From: Ulota crispa
Lineage: Eukaryota; Streptophyta; Bryopsida; Orthotrichales; Orthotrichaceae
Direction of reading: 5' to 3'
DNA length: 64,000 bases
NCBI GenBank assembly: GCA_963920765.1
Contig: OY987246.1
Span: 994,501-1,058,500 of the forward strand
Position 1 is the first letter of the stretch, and every line of letters begins with the position of its first letter. A program made the translations under genes and the position numbers. Positions 12,403 through 64,000 of the stretch are shown here, one piece after another. The notes below the pieces were generated by a model that saw only the letters and a list, made by a program, of their open reading frames with translations, did not search any database and was not told the DNA's origin.

Positions 12403-15400
12403 ATGGCGGCATTATCTGATACTTTGACGTGTTCTTTAATGAGGAGCAATGGTAACCCTCTGGCAAAGACACCTAACAACACGTCTTTATCCGTGACTTC
12501 CAGTTTTGAGTCCAGCAGACCGTACAATGTGAGGCGCTTAAGCTGTTCAGGTAGGAAGCCCTAAACCTTATAATGTGCATTTGTTTCTATTCCTTAAATC
12601 TTTGTTGTCTGTTGTGTGTACACTTAATCTCCATCTACCTTGCTTTTACCTCTAAATGCACCTAGAAGCACGTATATGTGCACTGTCCATCCTCTTGGAA
12701 AGTTGTTTTTATATGTTTGGAAGGTTCTAGAAAACTACATCCGCTATCTCCAATTACTAGAGTAAATCTGGCCTTGCATTTGTGCACGTAGGAACGCCAA
12801 TGGATGCTTTTCTAAATATTGAGAAATCAAAATTTATCTTGTTTGTTGAAGTCTTCTTTTTATCAAGATTTATCATAATGTAATAGGTTTTAAGATTTAA
12901 ATTTGTTAAAGAAGAGATGCAGTGAACTATTTATACCATGTTAAGAGTCACAGGATATTTTTACTTATTTTATCAGAATTTAATGTACTGATGGTGAATT
13001 TTCAAAGTTGTACACTTTTGAATTGATTTGACAAAAATCCATGATTGTTTTTCCAAGTTCAAGATGTATAGATAGTTTCTAATCATTGTACTTGATATCC
13101 TCTTATTATTCATCAACTTCAAAATAGGTTATAAAAGCCATATATTGTACACATCTATGTTTTGTCCAGACGAATGGGCCAGTTTGGAATTTTCCTTCAG
13201 GGCTCTTTAATCCTGTCAAATTACTTATTCTTGGAAAAATGCTTAAGGTTTTAAGAGTCTCATTTTCTGCCGATTGTTCAGTTTTGCACCTACTTCTCTA
13301 TATCTTGCTGGCAGCTTCCTCACGGATTCTGTTGTTTGGACTTATGTGATTTTTGTCATTCTGTCTAACATGGTTATTTGCTTTCTGGAGGTTTTGCAGT
13401 CTATCCAAGGGCAACTGGACAGTTACCACACTCTTTGCGTACGAGTGAATCACTTGGCGCTGCAATTTGGTGACTTTTTTTTACGATGACCACCAACTAC
13501 TGCATGCCTAATTTAACAGAAAAAATGAGTCTTTCTCCACCTGATTTTTCTTTGTCTTCCTTGAAAATTGTGTCTCAATTCGATCCCAGCCACGGACACA
13601 CTCCCATACCTCCCTTCTTATTTGTGAGCAAAGCTGTGGGGTTCTACAGACAGGATTTCTACCGACAGGTTTAGCAATCTGTTCCCTTGTTATTTAAATA
13701 ATGGTACTGGAGATCAGATACCTCAGGTTTTAGATCTCGAGTAGTGGAAGGAATCTATTTCTGAGAAGTGTTATGTAGATCCTTAGATTTTGCTAAGTAT
13801 TTTCTAAAGGCTTTCGTGTGCTTTTCAGGAAGTCATGGCCGAGACAACAGATGGCGAAGAGGCTGGTTTGTTCTGCCATGGATGCTTCCACGGGTGGTTC
13901 GGATTCTGGTGAGTTTTGGCAGCTCCACGATGTTTTTGTTAATGATCACTTTTGAATACCACCTAAATATTTGATGCTTCACCGAAATAGTGTCTCTTAC
14001 TGTAAATGAGCTTTTCCTTTTGGATTAATAGTGAACTTGGTTTAACCTAGGGACCATACAAAGTGAGGAAAGAGGATACTCATTAAATGACCACCACAAG
14101 ATCCAAATCTCACTTGATGGTTTTGTAATCTTATCCATCAAGATATACACTAACACATAATGTTCAAACTAATATCAAACCTACAAAATAGTTCATCGTA
14201 TAGTACCCAGATAAAATGAGTTCCCGCCAAAAACATCTCCCCACCCTACTATGCCTTGCAAAAATGCCGTTGTGACAAAGTGTATACTCCTCGGTCTCAA
14301 AAGAAGTGTCCACCTTAGAAACTTATGTCTTTTTCAGTAGGTTTGAGTAGGCTATATGGAGACATTTTTGGACCCAATTTTTGTTTCGGTTGCAATGAAC
14401 ACACACAATGTTCTTCAATGATTGTGGTGACAAAACGTTTGGATCTTTTTGAATAATTCGTTTTACAGTTTGATCTATGAATCGATAAAAAAAACATGAG
14501 ATTCTAATGCGGACACTTGTTTTGAGACAGAGGGAGTTTAAAATTTAAATGGTGAACTTTCAAGGCTGTAGGATAGGTTTGAGGAACATTCATTAACTAA
14601 GAGGAGTGTTGTTTAAGGGTATTTGCAAGTGGAATTCTGTGAGTGGTGGCAATTCTTTTTGTCAGGTTACCGTACACTAAACTGAATAAATAATGTAATT
14701 CCTTCATGTACATCTACTTAACTGTTGGAATGTTTCACCAGTTTTTCCAAGAATGAACGTGCGAGACCCCTACAAGCGCTTGGGAATAAACAAGGAGGCA
14801 GGGGAGGAAGAGATACGGGAAGCTCGCAGCTACTTGGCCAGTCAGGTAACTGGTTACCTGCAGCTTTTTTTTGAGGGGTCAAATATCAATAGTGATCTAT
14901 TTGGAGCATAAACCACCGCAACGAAAATCTTTTGTTCATTTTAGGCAGAATTTTCTATGAAATTAGGGCTTTGAGAAGCGTTACACAAACTTCCCTGCAT
15001 AATCGTTCATTTTGTATTGTTCATCCATTTTCTTGCGGTGATTTACGTTGGGTAGTGCTCAACTCATGAGGCATTTTTGGAAGAAGGCTTCCTTGTCAGG
15101 CTCTGCCCTGATGCTCGTCAAGCTTTGCCCTCTGCGTCAGCCCTTCTTTCCATCAAGCCCTCTTTGCTGAGCATTACCCTGTACATTAACAGACCTCTGA
15201 TACTGTTTTCTTCTGTTGTTTCTCTCGTAGAGTGTTGCAAAAACATTGTCTTCTTCTAACTTTCAACCTTCTGTGGCTGGTCTTTGGTGTAGTATGGTGG
15301 CAATGCTAAAAGCATGGAATCCATTGAGTCAGCATATGATAAGATTATGATGGAGAAATTGCGAGAATACCAAAAGCTGCAAAGCAATCCAAAGAAGCCA

Positions 15401-17439
15401 AAGGAGGTTAAGCCACTGCCCGCTTGGCTGCAGAAGATTGTTAATATGTATCAAGTTCCTAGTACGGATGTAATTGCGAAGAGAGCTGCTTTTTATGGTG
15501 TACTTGCTTTATGGAGTGTCCTCAAACCTGGAAACGGAGGTCCTGCTTTTCAGGTAAGCCATCTCCTTCAGCTTCTTCTCAACACAAGCTCTTTGCTTCT
15601 GTTTTCTTGGCAGCTCAATTATACCAATTGTTTCATTCCATTACTAGGCTCTTTTATTTTTAAATCATGACCAATAGATTAAAGTATCAGTTTCTGTTTC
15701 TTCTACGTTTTGTGGGTTGCATTGAGGTGAATATTTTCTGGCCGATACTTAGCCAATTAGGTCCACTCCTCACAAACCCTTCCCAAATAGTCAATTCTTA
15801 ACCATATTTGACTAACTACATATTATGAAATCCAAGAAGAGGGAACAAAACTTATTAAAATTTTAGATGTAGACCATTGCTCCACCATGCATGCAACCCT
15901 TGCCAAGTGCAACTTTGCACCTCCAGCTCCCAATGAATATGTCATGGTCATCAATGTTTTTGGCTCTAAACTGCTAATTAGAACTTGAAAACACCTCAAT
16001 TTTCACAAGTGTCTATTAGATTCAAAACAGAGTGGAGGTAGATTGGCAGTAAATTGGCGGTGGATTGGTTGCGACGCAAGAACCTTTAGCCTATGATTTT
16101 AACATTTTTTTATTTCTATCACTTCCCCTAATGTGATACACCTCAAATTTTGTCCCTCTCGTTTAGCTTCTACTAAACTTAGTTTCAAATTTGGTGAGGA
16201 GTTGACTACGTTAGAAGGGTTTGAGTGAGGAGTGGATCTTTTAAACTGGTTTTCTAATATTGCCGTATGAAAGCACTTATACATGTTCACGGCTTTACAA
16301 CTGTTCTCTTCTCAATGCTTGCCTAACCTGTGATACAACATAATTTTTTTCTGGTCTTTCTCCTCAGGTGCTCATGTCATTTATTGGGTGTATTTACTTT
16401 CTCAATGACCGAACGAAGAAGCTGGTCAGGTCTTTCTTCATCGGGTATGTTCCCTAACCCTGGTCTTTCTGCAATTTTTGCACGATACACTTCAGGATTT
16501 AAAATGGAAGCATACTCTAGAATAGTGTGGTCTCATTGTTGTGTAGTCAAATAATCTTCTCTTAAAACGTATCGTTCGGTTCTTCACAACTTGTCTTTCT
16601 AAGAGATACCTACATATCATCTATTTTAGATTCAAGTAGGTTCATCTTACATCACACAAGACTCCTATTAGATTGACAAAAGAATGAATGTCAAGTCAAC
16701 CAATATTATATTCATATTTTCCTCAAGCTGATGTCTTAACTCACTGCTGGTATCATACTGACAACAACTAAGGGGGCGGTTCACACTATGTCCCACTGAA
16801 ACCTCAGAATCCTATTGGATGAGAGCTAAAAAGATGAGTACCTAGCACTATGTCCCAAGTCCTCGTTCACTTACAAATGCCTATGGACAACACCTTTTGA
16901 ATTTTTTGGCGTTAAGAAGGCAGATTTTGCTCAAAGAGTTGGGTGGAGCAGAAATAAAACCCAATTTCAGAGCCAAGTTTCACCAGTTTTTTTGTTGAAT
17001 AGGCTGTGATTAGAATTTCTTTTTTCCTTCAGTATTTAGCTGGAACTTGCAAAGTTGAGACGTGAGACGTGGGACACAGTGTGAACCGCCTTTAAGTCAA
17101 CCTAAACTTGAATGTTACCTTCTCATTGATTTAACGTTTTTTGAATTAACCTTGATTTACGATCAATAACTTATGGCTCTGATAGGATGTTTTTTTAGAC
17201 GTGGTATTGTAATGGAGAAGCAGCAGATTTGGCCTTTGTTATTTGAGATTACATGTATAGTACCTAAATTTCTGGTCTTTGTGTACAGATTTGGTGCTCT
17301 AGTGTTAGGTTGGGTGTTCAGCTCCTTCCTGGTGCCTGTCATTCCTACACAAGTTCTTCCTTCGTCGTGGACTTTGGAGCTTACCTCGTCCCTTGTTTCC
17401 TATATCTTCTTGTGGGCTGCTTGCACGTTTTTAAGATGA
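12403..17439 (+). CDS. CPP1: Chloroplast J-like chaperone CPP1/CDF1
   Basis: In Arabidopsis CPP1 is a plastid membrane protein that stabilises protochlorophyllide oxidoreductase (family knowledge). Seven exons join in phase: 12403-12550, 13400-13469, 13829-13908, 14742-14845, 15293-15553, 16368-16444 and 17289-17439, for 296 residues. Residues 1-92 are Ser/Arg-rich with almost no acidic residues, ending near RLVCSA, as expected for a transit peptide. The J-like region starts at MNVRDPYKRLGINK (104-117) and continues through YGGN and IESAYDKIMMEKL; it lacks the HPD motif, as in the family. The C-terminal 110 residues hold three or four membrane segments (about 195-212, 218-236, 245-262 and 276-294), ending FLWAACTFLR. 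Introns 3, 5 and 6 each carry a different small transposon. Confidence 0.93.
14287..14536. mobile_element. Stowaway-like MITE (Tc1/mariner type) in CPP1 intron 3
   Basis: The ends CTCCTCGGTCTCAAAAGAAG and GTTTTGAGACAGAGGGAG are inverted copies of each other. They match the classic Stowaway terminus (CTCCCTCCGT.CCAAAA.AAGTGTC) known from flowering plants. TA precedes the left end, and the right flank is TTTA, so the TA duplication is not perfect. The element is about 250 bp, has no coding capacity and lies wholly within the third coding intron. Confidence 0.75.
15738..16265. mobile_element. Degenerate inverted-repeat element in CPP1 intron 5
   Basis: The left part carries GGTCCACTCCTCACAAACCC and the right part the inverse GGGTTTGAGTGAGGAGTGG. 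Pairing continues outward (GCCAATTAG against CTAATATTGCC) and inward (AGTCAATTC against GAGTTGACT). The arms are diverged, and no clear TSD was found. It is likely an old MITE that makes up most of the 814-bp intron. Confidence 0.5.
16772..17092. mobile_element. TAA-flanked MITE, family G copy 1, in CPP1 intron 6
   Basis: The ends GGGGGCGGTTCACACTATG and the inverse CACAGTGTGAACCGCCTT enclose 321 bp. TAA stands on both sides (16769-16771 and 17093-17095). A 3-bp TAA/TTA duplication fits PIF/Harbinger (Tourist-like) elements; that class assignment is inference. A related copy is at 56.7-57.4 kb. Confidence 0.65.
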
Positions 17440-25450: not shown

Positions 25451-26199
25451 TTGCATGCAACTAGGGTTTGATTTGCATGCAATAAGGATTTGATTTGCAT
25501 GCAACTAGGGTTTGATATGCATGCAACTAGGGTTTGATATGCATGCAACTAGGGTTTGATATGCATGCAACTAGGGTTTGACTTGCATGCACAACAAGGA
25601 TTTGATATGCATGCAACAAGGATTTGATTTGCATGCAACTAGGGTTTGATTTGCATGCAACAAGGATTCGATATGCATGCAACAAGGATTCGATATGCAT
25701 GCAACAAGGATTCGATATGCATGCAACAAGGATTCGATATGTATGCAACAAGGATTCGATATGCATGCAACAAGGATTAATATGCATGCAACAAGGATTT
25801 GATATGCATGCAACTAGGGTTTGATATGCATGCAACTAGGGTTTGATATGCATGCAACTAGGGTTTGACTTGCATGCACAACAAGGATTTGATATGCATG
25901 CAACAAGGATTTGATATGCATGCAACTAGGGTTTGATTTGCATGCAACAAGGATTCGATATGCATGCAACAAGGATTAATATGCATGCAACAAGGATTTG
26001 ATATGCATGCAACAAGGATTCGATATGCATGCAACAAGGATTTGATATGCATGCAACTAGGGTTTGATTTGCATGCAACACGGATTTGATATGCATGCAA
26101 CAAGGGTTTGATTTGCATGCAACAAGAATTTAATATGCATACAACAAGAATTTGATATGCATGCAACAAAGATTTGATATGCATGCAACTAGGGTTTGC
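25451..26199. repeat. 22-bp minisatellite with RY core (about 34 units)
   Basis: Tandem units of 22 bp, consensus TTTGATATGCATGCAAC followed by AAGGA or TAGGG. Variant units contain an extra CA (TGCATGCACAAC) or a shortened TTAAT. Every unit holds the palindrome TGCATGCA, hence CATGCA on both strands. A block of units recurs with a 287-bp offset (distinctive ACTTGCATGCACAAC at 25581 and 25868), showing a higher-order duplication. Because 22 is not a multiple of 3, long stop-free frames appear on both strands; I do not regard them as genes. Confidence 0.9.
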
Positions 26200-32161: not shown

Positions 32162-33594
32162 ATGGCGTTGCGAATAGGGTTACGAAGAGCTTCACGGTTG
32201 TGTGCTTATAATTCCTTCTTGCGCGCGGCTTTGGCAACAGGTTTGTCCTCTCCCTAAACGTCGTTTCTTTCTTCTTTCAGGATTAAGGGCTACACTAGTG
32301 ATTACTGTTAATGAAACTAGGGAAAATTTCATGGGTACCCCTAAAGTTTGCAATATTTACATAGATATTCCTGCTTTTTCAGAAATTTCAGAAATACCCT
32401 TGTACCAGAACTTTCAAGTGTTTGTTTTGTTGTGCATGCCACTTCCCTTCTTCCTTTGTGCGCACATTGCTTCTTTTTTGTTTCATTGCATTCCCTTCTT
32501 CAACATTGGTCGTGAAGAAAGTACAAGGACAACAAATACAGTAAATACCTAACTTTTTTGGTCCAAGGGTATTTGTGCAATTTGTGCAATTTCTGAAAAA
32601 GCAGGGGTATGTATGTAAATATTGGGTATCTATGTAAATATTGTAAACTTCAGGGGTATCCATGAAATTCTCCCATGAAACTAAATGGTTTTATTATGGA
32701 CCATCGCCATATCTCTCCATACACGGGTCTCTTATTCTCCCTTAACGCGACTTTCAATTTCTAATTGTGCATCATTTGAGTTCCACGAGGGATGGGTATG
32801 CTAGAAACTAATACACTCATGTAGCATCAAAACCTTACAAAGTAAGTGTCTGAGGATCACTGAATTCTGAAAACCCTAATTCTCTCTCTCTTTCCAGCAA
32901 ATGCTCCCCAAGGTCTGCTTGAGAATTGTGCACTGGATACTACATTACATTACATTTACAATTTAGATATGAATATGGGTTTTGGTCAAAGAAACAAGAA
33001 TGTCTGACCTCGAAGGTATTTAAAATGCTAGTAGATCACTTGCTGCCTAACTTTTCCAGACGTTCTAATCAGGTTTTTTAACGTTGCGCAGATAGTTTTG
33101 CAGCATCTCAAAGTGCGATCACAGTTGTTGGAAGAGCTTGTTTCGAGTCAAGACTACCGAACTCAACCATTAGGGTTTCAAGTCTCTCGCACTTTAGATC
33201 TTTCTGCAGCGAGAAGGACGTGGATTCCCGGAGTAACGCCATCAATGTAACCAATGCCGAAACTAATGCCGAAACCAAAGCCGGAGAGGAAGAGGAGGAG
33301 AGTTCCAAGCCGTCGAAGAGACACGACCTTGCCATGTTGTTCACGTGCAAAGTGTGCGAGACGAGGTCTGCGAAGACCATGAGCCGCGCCACTTACGAGA
33401 CGGGGATTGTGATAGTGCGGTGTCCTAAGTGTCGCAACCTGCATTTGATTGCCGACCGCCTGGGCTGGTTTGGAGAGGCCGGGAGCGTGGAGGATTTTCT
33501 GGAGCAGCAGGGCGTGTCTGTGAGGAAAGGCCTGGAGGCCAGCTACGAGTTCTCCGTTGACGATTTGGCTGGGTGGAGTCCACCCAAGGAATGA
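32162..33594 (+). CDS. Mitochondrial Hsp70-escort DNL zinc-finger protein (Hep1/Zim17/Tim15 type)
   Basis: Family members keep mitochondrial Hsp70 soluble and support matrix protein import. Two exons, 32162-32240 and 33092-33594, join in phase 1 (GT donor 32241, AG acceptor ending 33091) to give 193 residues. The N-terminus, MALRIGLRRASRLCAYNSFL, is Arg-rich without acidic residues, a mitochondrial presequence; SHFRSFCSE near 60-68 is a likely cleavage region. An acidic linker follows. The zinc site is CKVC (112-115) and CPKC (137-140), then NLHLIADRLGWFGE, where the DNL motif reads DRL (as I recall, plant members often vary here). His144 and Asp148 are kept. Plants also have plastid members, so plastid targeting is not excluded. 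The 851-bp intron contains a family-M MITE. Confidence 0.92.
32320..32674. mobile_element. Mutator-like MITE, family M copy 2, in Hep1 intron
   Basis: 355 bp with ends GGGAAAATTTCATGGGTAC and the inverse TCCATGAAATTCTCCC. Flanked by ATGAAACTA at 32311-32319 and 32675-32683, an exact 9-bp duplication. It begins 80 bp inside the intron, so it does not disturb either splice site. The terminal and central blocks match the copies at 2.2 and 54.5 kb. Confidence 0.9.
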
Positions 33595-57881: not shown

Positions 57882-58637
57882 CTTAAAAGGGTGATTGCAA
57901 GAAATACTTGTACTATTTTTTGTCTCCTTCACCTTGTGGTTTTTGACTCCTATCTTTTGCGTACCAAGTCTTTTTGACCTGGAATTTTAGAGTAATGTTC
58001 ACTTCAAAGTTATAAACGTTCGCAATTTTTTTTCGTTTTTTTTAAAAATTATGTTACTATTTTTAAATAGCCCTTGAATAGGTGTCTACCTTGGCCATTT
58101 TGGGGGGTTTTTAGTACTATTTTGGGTCCAAAAAAGCAAATTTCATGCCACAAATCATGGAAGTTGTTTATTGTAGAGCATTACATGGATATATAGAAGG
58201 GTTTCACAAAATTCTAAATTCCATGCCATGCACATTGTCTCAAAGTGAGCATCCATTCTCCTTGCATTGGTGAAATAAATAAATAAATAAAATCCTCCAA
58301 AAACCACTTGTATAAGGTGAAGCTACTCAAAGGGATATAAAATGGCCATTTTTATTTTGTTTTTATTTTATTTTTTACTATTTTCCAAAAAGCAAAAGGA
58401 AATTGTCTTTTTGTTGGTAATTTTTATCCATCTATTTTTGTGCATAACTTTTAGAATAAAATTTTTCTAGGTCTGAATTTTCAAGAGTATGCTATTTTAA
58501 GTGTTTTAAAAATTGTCCTTAGTTTATTTTATTTAAAAATAATAATAATTCAAAAGCTCATAGTACTACCTAGTACTACCAATTTTAAGGGTGTTTCAGA
58601 CAAAATTGTGAAGTGTTTCTTGCAACTTGCTTTTAAG
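57882..58637. mobile_element. Dispersed element, family R copy 1
   Basis: About 756 bp with ends CTTAAAAGGGTGATTGCAAG and the inverse CTTGCAACTTGCTTTTAAG. The interior aligns with 62413-63256 (CCTATCTTTTGCGTACCAAG / TCGTATCTTTTGCTTAACAAG, TTTTTAGTACTATTTTGG / TTTTTAGTATTGCATTGG, CTCAAAGTGAGCATCC / CTCAAAGTGTGCATCC). No open frame of note. Confidence 0.65.
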
Positions 58638-60039: not shown

Positions 60040-63000
60040 TTATCTGCCTGGATACATCACCATGTCTGTCAAGACGGATTTCAAGTACACGCGCTCTGCC
60101 TTCTGTAACCTCTTCTTGCTTGTAACACTCGAGAAGCCAAAATCTAGGATGCGGACAGAAAGCTGCTCTCCCTGCACAACCATGATATTACTTCGACGAA
60201 TATCTCCATGAAGCAATCCGCATGCATGGACTGCATCAAGCGCTTCAAGAGTTGCAGTCTGCACCTCCTCGGTCGGCGCCACTGAAAAATGATCACCACG
60301 GAAATAACTGATAAATGACTACTCTGCCAAGAGATTGCAGATGGTGAAACATGACGGCCCTTCAGAAAAAAACACCACAAAATCCCTAAGCTCAAGCTAT
60401 GAGAAACGAGAGTTTTGCAAAAAATACTGCCTTCTCTAAGTATCACACCTTTGATCAATTCAGTGGCCACAAACACAACCCGACCTTTATTTGTGGTTCC
60501 ATACCCTACTAATCCAGGAACAAAAACCCCCCAAAGCTTCTCCATCTTCGAGTAGGCAACCACCTCCTTCAGTAGAGCCTGCACAAGCACAGCCAAAAGA
60601 TGAGTATATGACACAATAACATGAAAAACAAGTCAAGTGTTGCAAACTGCACGAGGCTCACCTCCGCACGTTTCGTGCCTGAGTAGCCAAACTTCAATGC
60701 CACGACTTGCCCATGCAAACGGCCAGCAACAACGTATCCACCCCACCCCTCACAACTTATGACACCCGCCCGTTTTAGGTTTAGGACCTTAGCGGGGATA
60801 TCTTGCAAAGCCATCTGCTTCTCAACTGGGTGAGTTCCTCCCGACCTGCAAAATAATAATGCAACTGTTGTCAATTCACCACTTGTTCCACGAGATCGAG
60901 CACATAAACAAGAACAAATTGAGTAAATGGTTGGATTAGTTACCTTGGGATTTCAGAGCCGCTCTTGTTGCTACCCGGTCCTTGATAGTTTGGATCATTG
61001 ACAATGTCATTAGTGCTTTCTTTGGAATGGTGGGAGGCAGCTTCAGGTACTGTGGAAAATCGGCCATTCTCAACTGGATAACCAAACTCCGACTTATCCT
61101 CTGCCGCAGTGTGCACCAAATATACCAACGCATCAAGCGCACCCGAGGGCTCACCACTCGCTCTAAAACCAGTCGATATTTTAAGGCAGCTGGCATTATC
61201 TCGTTTGAAAAGATACCAGTTCCTAGCATCGGTTAGGACACCGTAACCCACCTTAGACCTGCAACTCAGAGTAATAGCACAATGAGAACTGCCCTGCATT
61301 CCAAGCTGTTGCAGATTGGGAAGTGCAGAAAAATCTTGTTGGTACAAAATAACAGGAAACAAGATTATCTCAGAGTGAGCCGACATGGAACTGGGTCAAA
61401 CAAGCAGCAGAATGTAGTTTGCTAAAAAAAAGGTTAGTAAAAAATAGTTGATTGAATACTGGAACTTGGCTAAAGCAAAAGGGTAAGCAGGTCAACGTTG
61501 AATCCAAGCCGTTTTTGCCTAGAGGAAAACTTGCCGAGATACTCATAGGTTCAAAAGCAGCTTACAGAACCATGTACTCATACAGCTGGTTGATACAATG
61601 CACGACTTTTTCTCTATGAGCCGGCGTGATGCCCAAAGCTTCGCAGCTGCCATCCTCTCCTACATTTATTGGAACCTCCGTCAGAACTCTTCCAACAATG
61701 TGAGAATCGGATCACAACACTACAAAAACATGGAATAGGGCCAGTTGGGACCTGATTTGTTGGTGGTGCTTTGTGTCCAAGCTTTGTGGAGATTCCATGA
61801 GTCACCTTGGTCAGGTCCCAGACCTCCTTTCTTGACCTCAACGGCCACAACATCCTTCGTCCCTAAACTGAGTATATGATCTGCTGTGGGGCCTCTAACA
61901 TAAAGTTCAACCATGTCGCTTGCTGTCACACCCTCACCTAATCCTATTCTGTCATTTTCCCCTCTCTTTTTTGAGAGCATACGGACCTGCCGCATGAAAC
62001 GAAACATCGACAGCGGCTCCTTCTTGTCCATAAAATCTTGCGTTTTGCTCAGGATAGTATCGACGACATATGATTCCACGCCCTTCATATCTATAGTATT
62101 CCGAGTGATAGTAAGGTGGCTAAGGTCGTACATGCGCATCTTTTTGTTTGCTCTATTTAGAGATTCTTCAACATTGTCCCTCACATCCCAATGCTCTACT
62201 TTGACAGGTATCCACATGCGTTCATAATTCGAGCTGCTTGGATTGCTTGGATATCTGAACGGCTCTGATGGAGGAGCCGGCGCCCTAAGCCTCTGCGCCA
62301 ACCAATGATATTCTATGCCCACGTTTGCATGCACAACACAATTTATGATAAAAAAAATGATGCACAAGCACCTTCACATGCATCACCAAATCCAAATAGG
62401 ATCCCAACACGTCCTAGGGTGATTGCAAGAAACACTAGTATTACATTGTGTCCCCTTCCCCTCGGGCGGGTGGTATTAGGATCGTATCTTTTGCTTAACA
62501 AGTCCTTTTGACCTGAAATTTTAAGGTAAGGAAAACATCAAAGTTACTAAAGTTCAATAAATTTTTAATATTTTTAAAAATTATTTTACTATTTATAATT
62601 GAATATCAATTGCATGTCTACCTAAATGGTTTTGGAGGTTTTTAGTATTGCATTGGATCAAAAAATATGAATTTTTGGCCACAAATTAGGGTAGTGATTT
62701 AGGAGGCAGCATTACACAAGTATGTAGACCAATTTTGCAAATCTCAAAATTCTATGCCTTGCACGTTCTCTCAAAGTGTGCATCCTATCTCCCTGCCTAG
62801 GTGATAGACAAAAATCTTCCTAGAAAAATTACTTTCATGATTTCAAGCCAATCAAGGAGGCCACAAATGGCCAATTTTTGTTTTAATTTTTTTGGTTTTT
62901 TTTAAATTACTAAGAATTAACACATGGCAGCCTAGAAATTCTAGTAATTTTTGCTCCACATGCCTATATAGTACTCCCCTCCATTTACTAGCACTATGTA

Positions 63001-64000
63001 GTACCATTGACCACTGACATCTTTTGAGGATCTAAATTTTTTTCATTCATTCATTGAATTGCTATTATTGATAGTTGGTTTTCCTAAATGACATGCCATG
63101 TGCCTTGTTCTCAATAGATTTGGGATGGGAGGGATGATTCAGATTTTCAGTGTGAGGATGCTATTACTTATAGTACTAGTAGCACTGCCAGTATTACACC
63201 CAAAAAGAGGCATTTTGAGACAAAACCATGAAGTATTTTTTGCAACTACCCCTAGGTCAACCCTAGAGACAGATTGCTTCCAAATAACCCACAATAAACA
63301 AGTAAACATAACCTAGACCACCTAGTTTGGCAATAGAGAACCAGCTAGAGAACCATTGCAGTCAATGACTTAGACTATCCAATCCTCCGCCCAACCCTAA
63401 TTCCAAGACCAAGAAATGAACCATCGCCAAGGAATCCAGCAGCCTCTGGCAACAGTAAATCACAAAGATGATGAGCACATGCATGCATGGACCCTCAATG
63501 ACAAGTGATGAAACTCACCTCGTCCCTCCTGGTCTCGCAATTGCAGCTTCCTGCGCCAGAGTTGATTCTCCTTGTGCAGGAGTTGAATCTCCTTGTCTTG
63601 GAGTTGCACATACTCCATCAAGAGTTTTAGTTTCTCCTCCTGGAGTTTTCTCCCCTTGCCTTGAAGAAGTAGCTCACTCTCGTCACCGTCTAAGCATTTT
63701 TCAATTTCCTCCGAGTCGTCTAATCTTCCAATACGCTCTTGCACTTCAAGGATCTGCTCTTCCACTTCAAGGGTCTCCTTTTGCACTCCAAGTATTAGCT
63801 CTTCCGTCGCTCCTAGCTCCTCGTCCGTGCTTTCTAGCTCCTCGTCCATGCTTCCTGGCTCCTCATCCATGCTTCCAAGCTGCTCTTCGAGATTCTCACC
63901 AGCCTCACCCATTCTTCTCATAAGCTTAACCCCAATGCAGTAATAAGTTAAGTTAGGCAACCAACGATCAAAGCCCCGTGCAAGGAATGCGGCCTCAAAA
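60040..64000 (-). CDS. Coiled-coil / PD-(D/E)XK nuclease-like / protein-kinase-like protein, N-terminus open
   Basis: Seven minus-strand exons join in phase: 64000(open)-63519, 62312-61806, 61686-61566, 61258-60944, 60845-60662, 60578-60449 and 60281-60040. From the first ATG in the window (63921) the product is 633 residues, but the frame stays open to the edge, so more may lie beyond. Residues 1-130 are acidic and then a long coiled coil. Residues 170-365 fit a PD-(D/E)XK fold: Glu214, Asp279, Glu293-x-Lys295 (VAVEVKK), then Gln337-x3-Tyr341 and YGVLTDARNWYLFKR. A low-complexity linker follows. The kinase-like part has GWGGYVVAGRLHGQVVALK (Lys500), Glu515, HGDIRRSN (Asp580, Asn585) and LDFGFS (Asp600), and stops 30 residues later. 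The 61806/61686 intron boundaries are the least certain. The pairing recalls Crinkler-type CR proteins. Function is unknown. Confidence 0.78.
62413..63256. mobile_element. Dispersed element, family R copy 2, inside the nuclease-kinase gene intron
   Basis: About 844 bp with ends CCTAGGGTGATTGCAAGAAA and the inverse TTTTTTGCAACTACCCCTAGG, homologous to 57882-58637. It occupies most of the 1.2-kb first visible intron, between the coiled-coil exon and the nuclease exon. Confidence 0.65.

Follow-up and report, generated by a model that had tools for sequence, protein, structure and literature searches.

A predicted restriction nuclease–kinase gene family of Crinkler-type design, probably in decay, in a plant genome

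The window analysed here is a stretch of 64,000 nucleotides, C5:994501-1058500 of a 274.8-Mb assembly. It carries pieces of two ordinary plant genes, a CPP1-like gene (15293-15667, E 2.8e-15) and a DNL zinc-finger gene (33082-33591, E 2e-26), which identify the setting as a plant genome; CPP1 is a plant plastid protein family. On the minus strand, seven exons running from 63921 to 60040 can be joined in one frame to give a predicted product of 633 aa. Its parts are, in order, a heptad-repeat coiled coil, a PD-(D/E)XK domain and a short kinase, and the model holds E214, D279, E293, K295, QLYEY, VALK, HGD..N and DFG. The features of the locus are as follows:

63519-63921, minus strand: exon 1, coiled-coil header with first residues MRRMGEAG and three 21-bp (7-residue) repeat arrays
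62419-63250, no strand assigned: insertion of ~832 bp in intron 1, absent from the relative L022
62313-62332, minus strand: acceptor region of intron 1, with an in-frame CATAG substitute 15 nt downstream of the usual site
61806-62312, minus strand: exon 2, N-terminal part of the PD-(D/E)XK domain with E214, D279, E293 and K295
61566-61659, minus strand: exon 3, QLYEY motif (revised start; 61686 in the 633-aa model)
60944-61258, minus strand: exon 4, final conserved segment of the nuclease domain (KVGYGVLTDARNWYLFKRD), then linker
60662-60845, minus strand: exon 5, kinase N-lobe with glycine loop GWGGYV and the VALK lysine
60431-60578, minus strand: exon 6, remaining kinase N-lobe and hinge, ending at 60431 (GC donor) or 60449 (GTGTGA donor)
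60040-60281, minus strand: exon 7, HGDIRRSN catalytic loop, DFG and a short tail up to the stop

A repeat at 57888-58376 shares 70% similarity with the intron-1 insertion, which is probably a transposable element.

When this genome was searched at the DNA and protein levels, seven further loci related to the window gene emerged, so that the family comprises at least eight loci, the window included, on five large contigs. The relatives were read from fetched stretches of 9-9.9 kb each:

L022, at C5:593k
L023, at C1:6.80M
L024, at C2:33.02M
L025, at C7:21.19M
L026, at C5:23.08M
L027, at C10:9.82M
L028, at C5:3.99M, a fragment

An additional candidate at C3:27509032 was rejected because it reads as an ordinary CDK-like kinase. 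The exon order of the window gene is repeated in L022, L024, L025 and L026 with mostly identical splice positions, and most of the window exons were found in L027; no kinase exons lie within the fetched stretch of L023. Such agreement in exon order and splice positions among the fuller relatives is not expected by chance. The preliminary description had treated the nuclease and kinase exons as parts of a single gene, and their travelling together in the fuller family members argues that this is very likely so.

Comparison with the relatives also corrected the gene model. The seven exons, the single frame, the length of 633 aa and the named residues were recovered as first described, while the start of exon 3 and the sites of introns 1 and 6 had to be revised. 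Exon 3 most likely begins at 61659 (TGTAG|GA), 27 nt after the modelled 61686, since the window (at 61660), L022, L024 and L025 all offer an in-phase TGYAG or CGCAG acceptor, whereas the upstream acceptor AAGAG|TT occurs, among these four, in the window and L022 only. The revised start removes 9 residues and would give a 624-aa protein; with it the nuclease profile score described below rises from 32.1 to 34.8, in a second run that also extended the L027 row. The acceptor of intron 1 reads GCATGCAG in L022 and L024 and GCATGCAA in the window, where the model depends on the in-frame CATAG at 62313. The donor of intron 6 is GT in L022, L024, L025 and L026 and GC in the window (AGAGAAG|GCAGTA, exon end 60431), while the AAAG|GTGTGA donor used for intron 6 in the 633-aa model is GC in L022; by arithmetic, the GC-donor version of the window protein has 630 aa. 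The frame of the window copy looks perfect because an in-frame substitute stands in for each lost splice site.

The coiled-coil header first proposed for this gene is supported by the heptad repeats of exon 1. Tandem arrays found by TRF at 63559-63606, 63735-63803 and 63811-63885 consist of 21-bp units, equivalent to 7-residue repeats, and the heptad contrast of exon 1 was reached by 11 of 2000 shuffles. The window, L022, L023 and L025 share a coiled-coil-like exon 1; its start is conserved in L022 and L023, and L022 has extra repeats near its end. L026 carries an unrelated header of 76 aa (L026:3142-3369, C5:23074641-23074868), which occurs once in the genome and has no Pfam match. Different headers, coiled-coil-like in one case and the 76-aa type in the other, are therefore found on the same type of C-terminus. 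By eye the L026 header is possibly SAM-like, and it precedes the same nuclease-kinase body.

For the nuclease domain, the comparison was made at the level of profiles. HSDR_N_2 loci were collected by searching 210 distinct bacterial genomes, and 32 of the 34 fetched loci were kept by the HMM step. Aligned by hhalign with these 32 bacterial sequences, six family copies placed D279, E293-x-K295, Q-x3-Y and LTD..W in register with the HSDR_N_2 counterparts, in agreement with the PD-(D/E)XK site originally read from the window. The score of 32.1 (P 6.6e-4) was reached by none of 300 column shuffles (best 21.2), the reversed-alignment control gave 15.7, and 10-column block shuffles, in which the motif blocks are kept, came as close as 31.4 with 0 of 200 as high. 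With corrected rows the score was 34.8 (P 2.6e-4), again beyond all 300 column shuffles (best 24.3), the probability that hhalign itself assigns to the HSDR_N_2 match being only 27-43%. The order and register of D, ExK, QxxxY and LTN/LTD..W are thus those of Pfam HSDR_N_2 (PF13588), the N-terminal domain of the type I restriction enzyme R subunit. Unlike those enzymes, the family has no helicase motor and is fused to a kinase, and the similarity is one of profiles, single-sequence matches lying below the cut-off.

These single-sequence searches were consistently weak. Pfam scans of the six copies gave no significant REase match; HSDR_N_2 appeared below threshold in two of the six, in different parts of the profile, with L024 (E 0.029) covering the D-ExK part and L026 (E 0.13) the Q-x3-Y/LTD part, and the window copy matched MC4 at a sub-threshold E of 0.11. 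PHROGs returned three weak matches, the best (E 0.086) between the Q-x3-Y/LTD stretch of the window copy and the N-terminal part of a DNA methyltransferase family. An NCBIfam search gave no match, the PDB search a single chance match (E 0.44), and the PF13588 profile matched nothing in the plant's own genome. AF2 on exon 2 alone yielded an unusable model (pLDDT 35). We also looked for a close bacterial, viral or plasmid relative, and none was confirmed at the sensitivity used: viral contigs gave 24 pattern matches and GTDB genomes 26, with no relative in either, and none was confirmed in the plasmid collection.

In the aligned relatives D279 is kept in 5 of 6, E293 in 5 of 6, K295 in 6 of 6, Q in 4 of 4 and Y in 3 of 4, the exceptions including N in place of D279 in L023 and K in place of E293 in L028; ExK is absent from L027. 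The copies thus share a predicted restriction-nuclease-type domain in which D, ExK and QxxxY are conserved in most alignable members. E214, which had been counted among the catalytic residues, is supported only weakly across relatives, its column holding E in L022 and L025, D in L023, F in L024 and I in L026.

The kinase-like domain is present as first described, with the VALK lysine, HGD..N and DFG, and matches Pfam Pkinase at E 1.6e-8 in the window and 6.5e-10 in L026. Aligned relatives keep the lysine in 4 of 4 cases and the catalytic D, the N and the D of DFG in 5 of 5 each, apart from DFS in L027 in place of DFG and HED in L024 instead of HGD. The window protein ends ~33 residues after DFG, so that the usual kinase C-lobe is missing. 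Similarly short ends were read in L022, L024, L025 and L026; a full C-lobe with APE was not found, the L026 kinase covering positions 11-153 of the 263 in the profile. The predicted domain is therefore a short kinase that keeps its catalytic residues VAxK, HxD..N and DFG. For comparison, residues 389-574 make up an active fragment of the Phytophthora CRN78 kinase (PMC7990189). Like the fungal FunK1 proteins (Pkinase_fungal, PF17667), the family has a kinase-like domain, but membership was rejected since the weak match of L026 (E 0.0058, 15.8 bits) lies below the cut-off of 24.1 bits. No PF17667 match was listed for the window protein, and the profile also hits other sites of the plant genome and 6 of the 14 control genomes.

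The pairing of a REase with a kinase is already known, and the class has been reported from land plants, according to the excerpted text of PMC5289972. Citing Zhang et al. (2016), that paper puts REase plus kinase at roughly a sixth of CR C-termini, and it also describes varied headers on related C-termini. Oomycetes and fungi are the organisms best known for the architecture. The Crinkler precedent invoked for the window gene was hence right in kind: CR/CRN proteins such as CRN8, with its D2 kinase domain, unite a REase-type domain and a kinase in one protein, and a REase-superfamily domain and a kinase likewise occur in one predicted protein here. Variable headers and land-plant occurrence (PMC5289972) and many pseudogenes, with 38 CRN8 pseudogenes in Phytophthora genomes (PMC3426532), extend the likeness as far as these excerpts describe it; it is a likeness of design, drawn from published descriptions of these proteins. 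The plant family differs in having no visible ubiquitin-like header or NTPase, with a coiled-coil or, in L026, another header in their place, in the HGD rather than RD catalytic loop, and in being plant-encoded. The header alone matched Pfam entries only at E 0.39 or worse, none of them Crinkler. The ubiquitin-like Crinkler header PF20147 is typical of Phytophthora members and not of all CRs. Its profile matched 0 of 1 genome here, but 0 of 14 controls matched too, which deprives the negative of weight. Among the literature matches listed, no paper deals with a coiled-coil-headed plant REase-kinase family; the survey by Zhang et al. (2016) lies outside that coverage.

All eight copies look damaged. 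Among the seven relatives, stop codons interrupt L022 in exon 2, which also carries a frameshift, and again where exon 5 ends; further stops lie in exon 6 of L025, exon 2 of L026 and exon 7 of L027. The reading frame is broken several times in L024, once in L025 and more than once in L027, where ExK is missing too. L026 has in addition lost its exon-2 donor, judging from L027. L023 has no kinase part, and L028 is reduced to a fragment. Sequencing error may lie behind breaks seen in the relatives. The window copy is the least damaged of the eight, with no stop or frameshift and two canonical splice sites lost. The fully open frame is not required of a pseudogene and counts against a reading of decay.

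Divergence from L022 is equal in exons (91.4% identity over 1843 aligned bases) and introns (91.7% of 1114), so that recent selection is not visible. With L024 as outgroup, the window lineage has accumulated 13 silent and 30 replacement changes (dN/dS 0.69, p 0.17 against neutral); the ratio is 0.64 with L025 as outgroup and 0.56 with both outgroups (p 0.14). Selection on the window lineage is thus not distinguishable from neutral. These values were computed without 9 codons judged intronic and ~10 codons past the L022 frameshift; including these ~19 codons changes little (0.75 instead of 0.69, outgroup L024). For the broken L022 lineage the ratio is lower (0.47-0.51, p 0.014-0.045), which suggests that part of the history since the split was constrained, or that L022 broke late. 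Between the window and L024 dN/dS is 0.65, and 0.75 for L025; the more distant L026 (0.33) and L027 (0.38) suggest that the family was likely constrained in the past, which is not firmly measured since dS to these two copies is saturated. Between the window and L022, dS is 0.255 in exon 2 (61806-62312) and 0.055 in the kinase part (60040-60845), and this roughly fivefold unevenness suggests gene conversion among copies.

We consider it reasonably probable, though well short of assured, that these eight loci represent a decaying plant REase-kinase family of Crinkler-type design with a coiled-coil header on the plant side, of which the window copy is a casualty. That copy is probably a recent and the least damaged one, expressed at best via two substitute splice sites. 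In the ancestral protein, the coiled coil would have formed dimers or oligomers, the nuclease would have cut intracellular nucleic acid, and the kinase might have gated the nuclease by phosphorylation. These roles are proposed by analogy with Crinkler-type proteins, for which toxicity is assigned to the REase and a presumed regulatory part to the kinase (Zhang et al. 2016, via PMC5289972), and of which CRN8 is reported to dimerise and autophosphorylate with kinase activity dispensable for cell death (PMC3426532); for CRN78, by contrast, virulence depends on the kinase (PMC7990189). We infer that the plant nuclease-kinase may have an immune role. Nuclease-kinases of the Crinkler type have mainly been known as weapons that pathogens use on plants, and the plant-encoded family would be the same design on the host side. 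With its own headers, it would offer a test case of whether plants use DNA-cutting proteins in defence or have discarded them; eight damaged-looking copies suggest a function that is costly or obsolete. In a bolder version, plants would have retained and remodelled an intracellular REase-kinase weapon of the Crinkler type, exchanging one header for another (a heptad coiled coil, a possibly SAM-like one) much as pathogens do; prolonged selection in the past would now have given way to loss in this genome, and the window copy might still work by way of its substitute splice sites. We think this rather unlikely.

The nuclease site had been described as intact-looking and the gene as a possible immune or conflict protein; that the window copy is an intact, working gene we could not uphold: two canonical splice sites are lost, all seven relatives are damaged or truncated, and the rate on its lineage cannot be told from neutral. 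It may nevertheless be asked whether the copy still works through its substitutes (62313; GC or GTGTGA donor) as an intracellular nuclease-kinase in defence or genome conflict. No stop or frameshift interrupts its frame, unlike in L022, L024, L025, L026 and L027, each lost splice site has an in-frame replacement, the named catalytic residues are present, and towards the 3' end exons 3-7 are slightly better kept relative to L022 (94.8%) than introns 2-6 (91.7%). Against this, exons overall are no better conserved than introns, and the window lineage, with a dN/dS that does not fall significantly under neutral, has a higher ratio than the broken L022. We doubt that the copy works, without dismissing it.

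Decay of a once active nuclease also has to be weighed against a REase fold kept solely as a nucleic-acid-binding or dimerising platform, with the kinase as the active part. The loss of ExK in L027, the N for D279 in L023 and the poor conservation of E214 would fit such a platform, as would the lowest dN among the regions compared with L022 being that of the kinase part (0.042). L025 and L026, however, still hold D, ExK and Q-x3-Y at 41% and 34% identity to the window copy over the nuclease region, and we regard a mere platform as distinctly improbable. That the nuclease-like and kinase exons are chance neighbours or belong to two genes is scarcely credible: some splice sites of the 633-aa model, from which a single gene was predicted, are doubtful, but L022, L024, L025 and L026 share its exon order and most splice positions.

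It is equally hard to credit that the family came in recently from a fungus or oomycete, whether by transfer or as contamination, although the architecture is best known from these groups (PMC5289972): eight loci with shared intron positions lie on five large contigs of one plant assembly, dS is 0.5 to above 1 between most copies, and the window also carries the CPP1-like gene. Elsewhere in the window, a 22-bp unit is repeated about 34 times in tandem at 25452-26198, partly inside a repetitive open frame.
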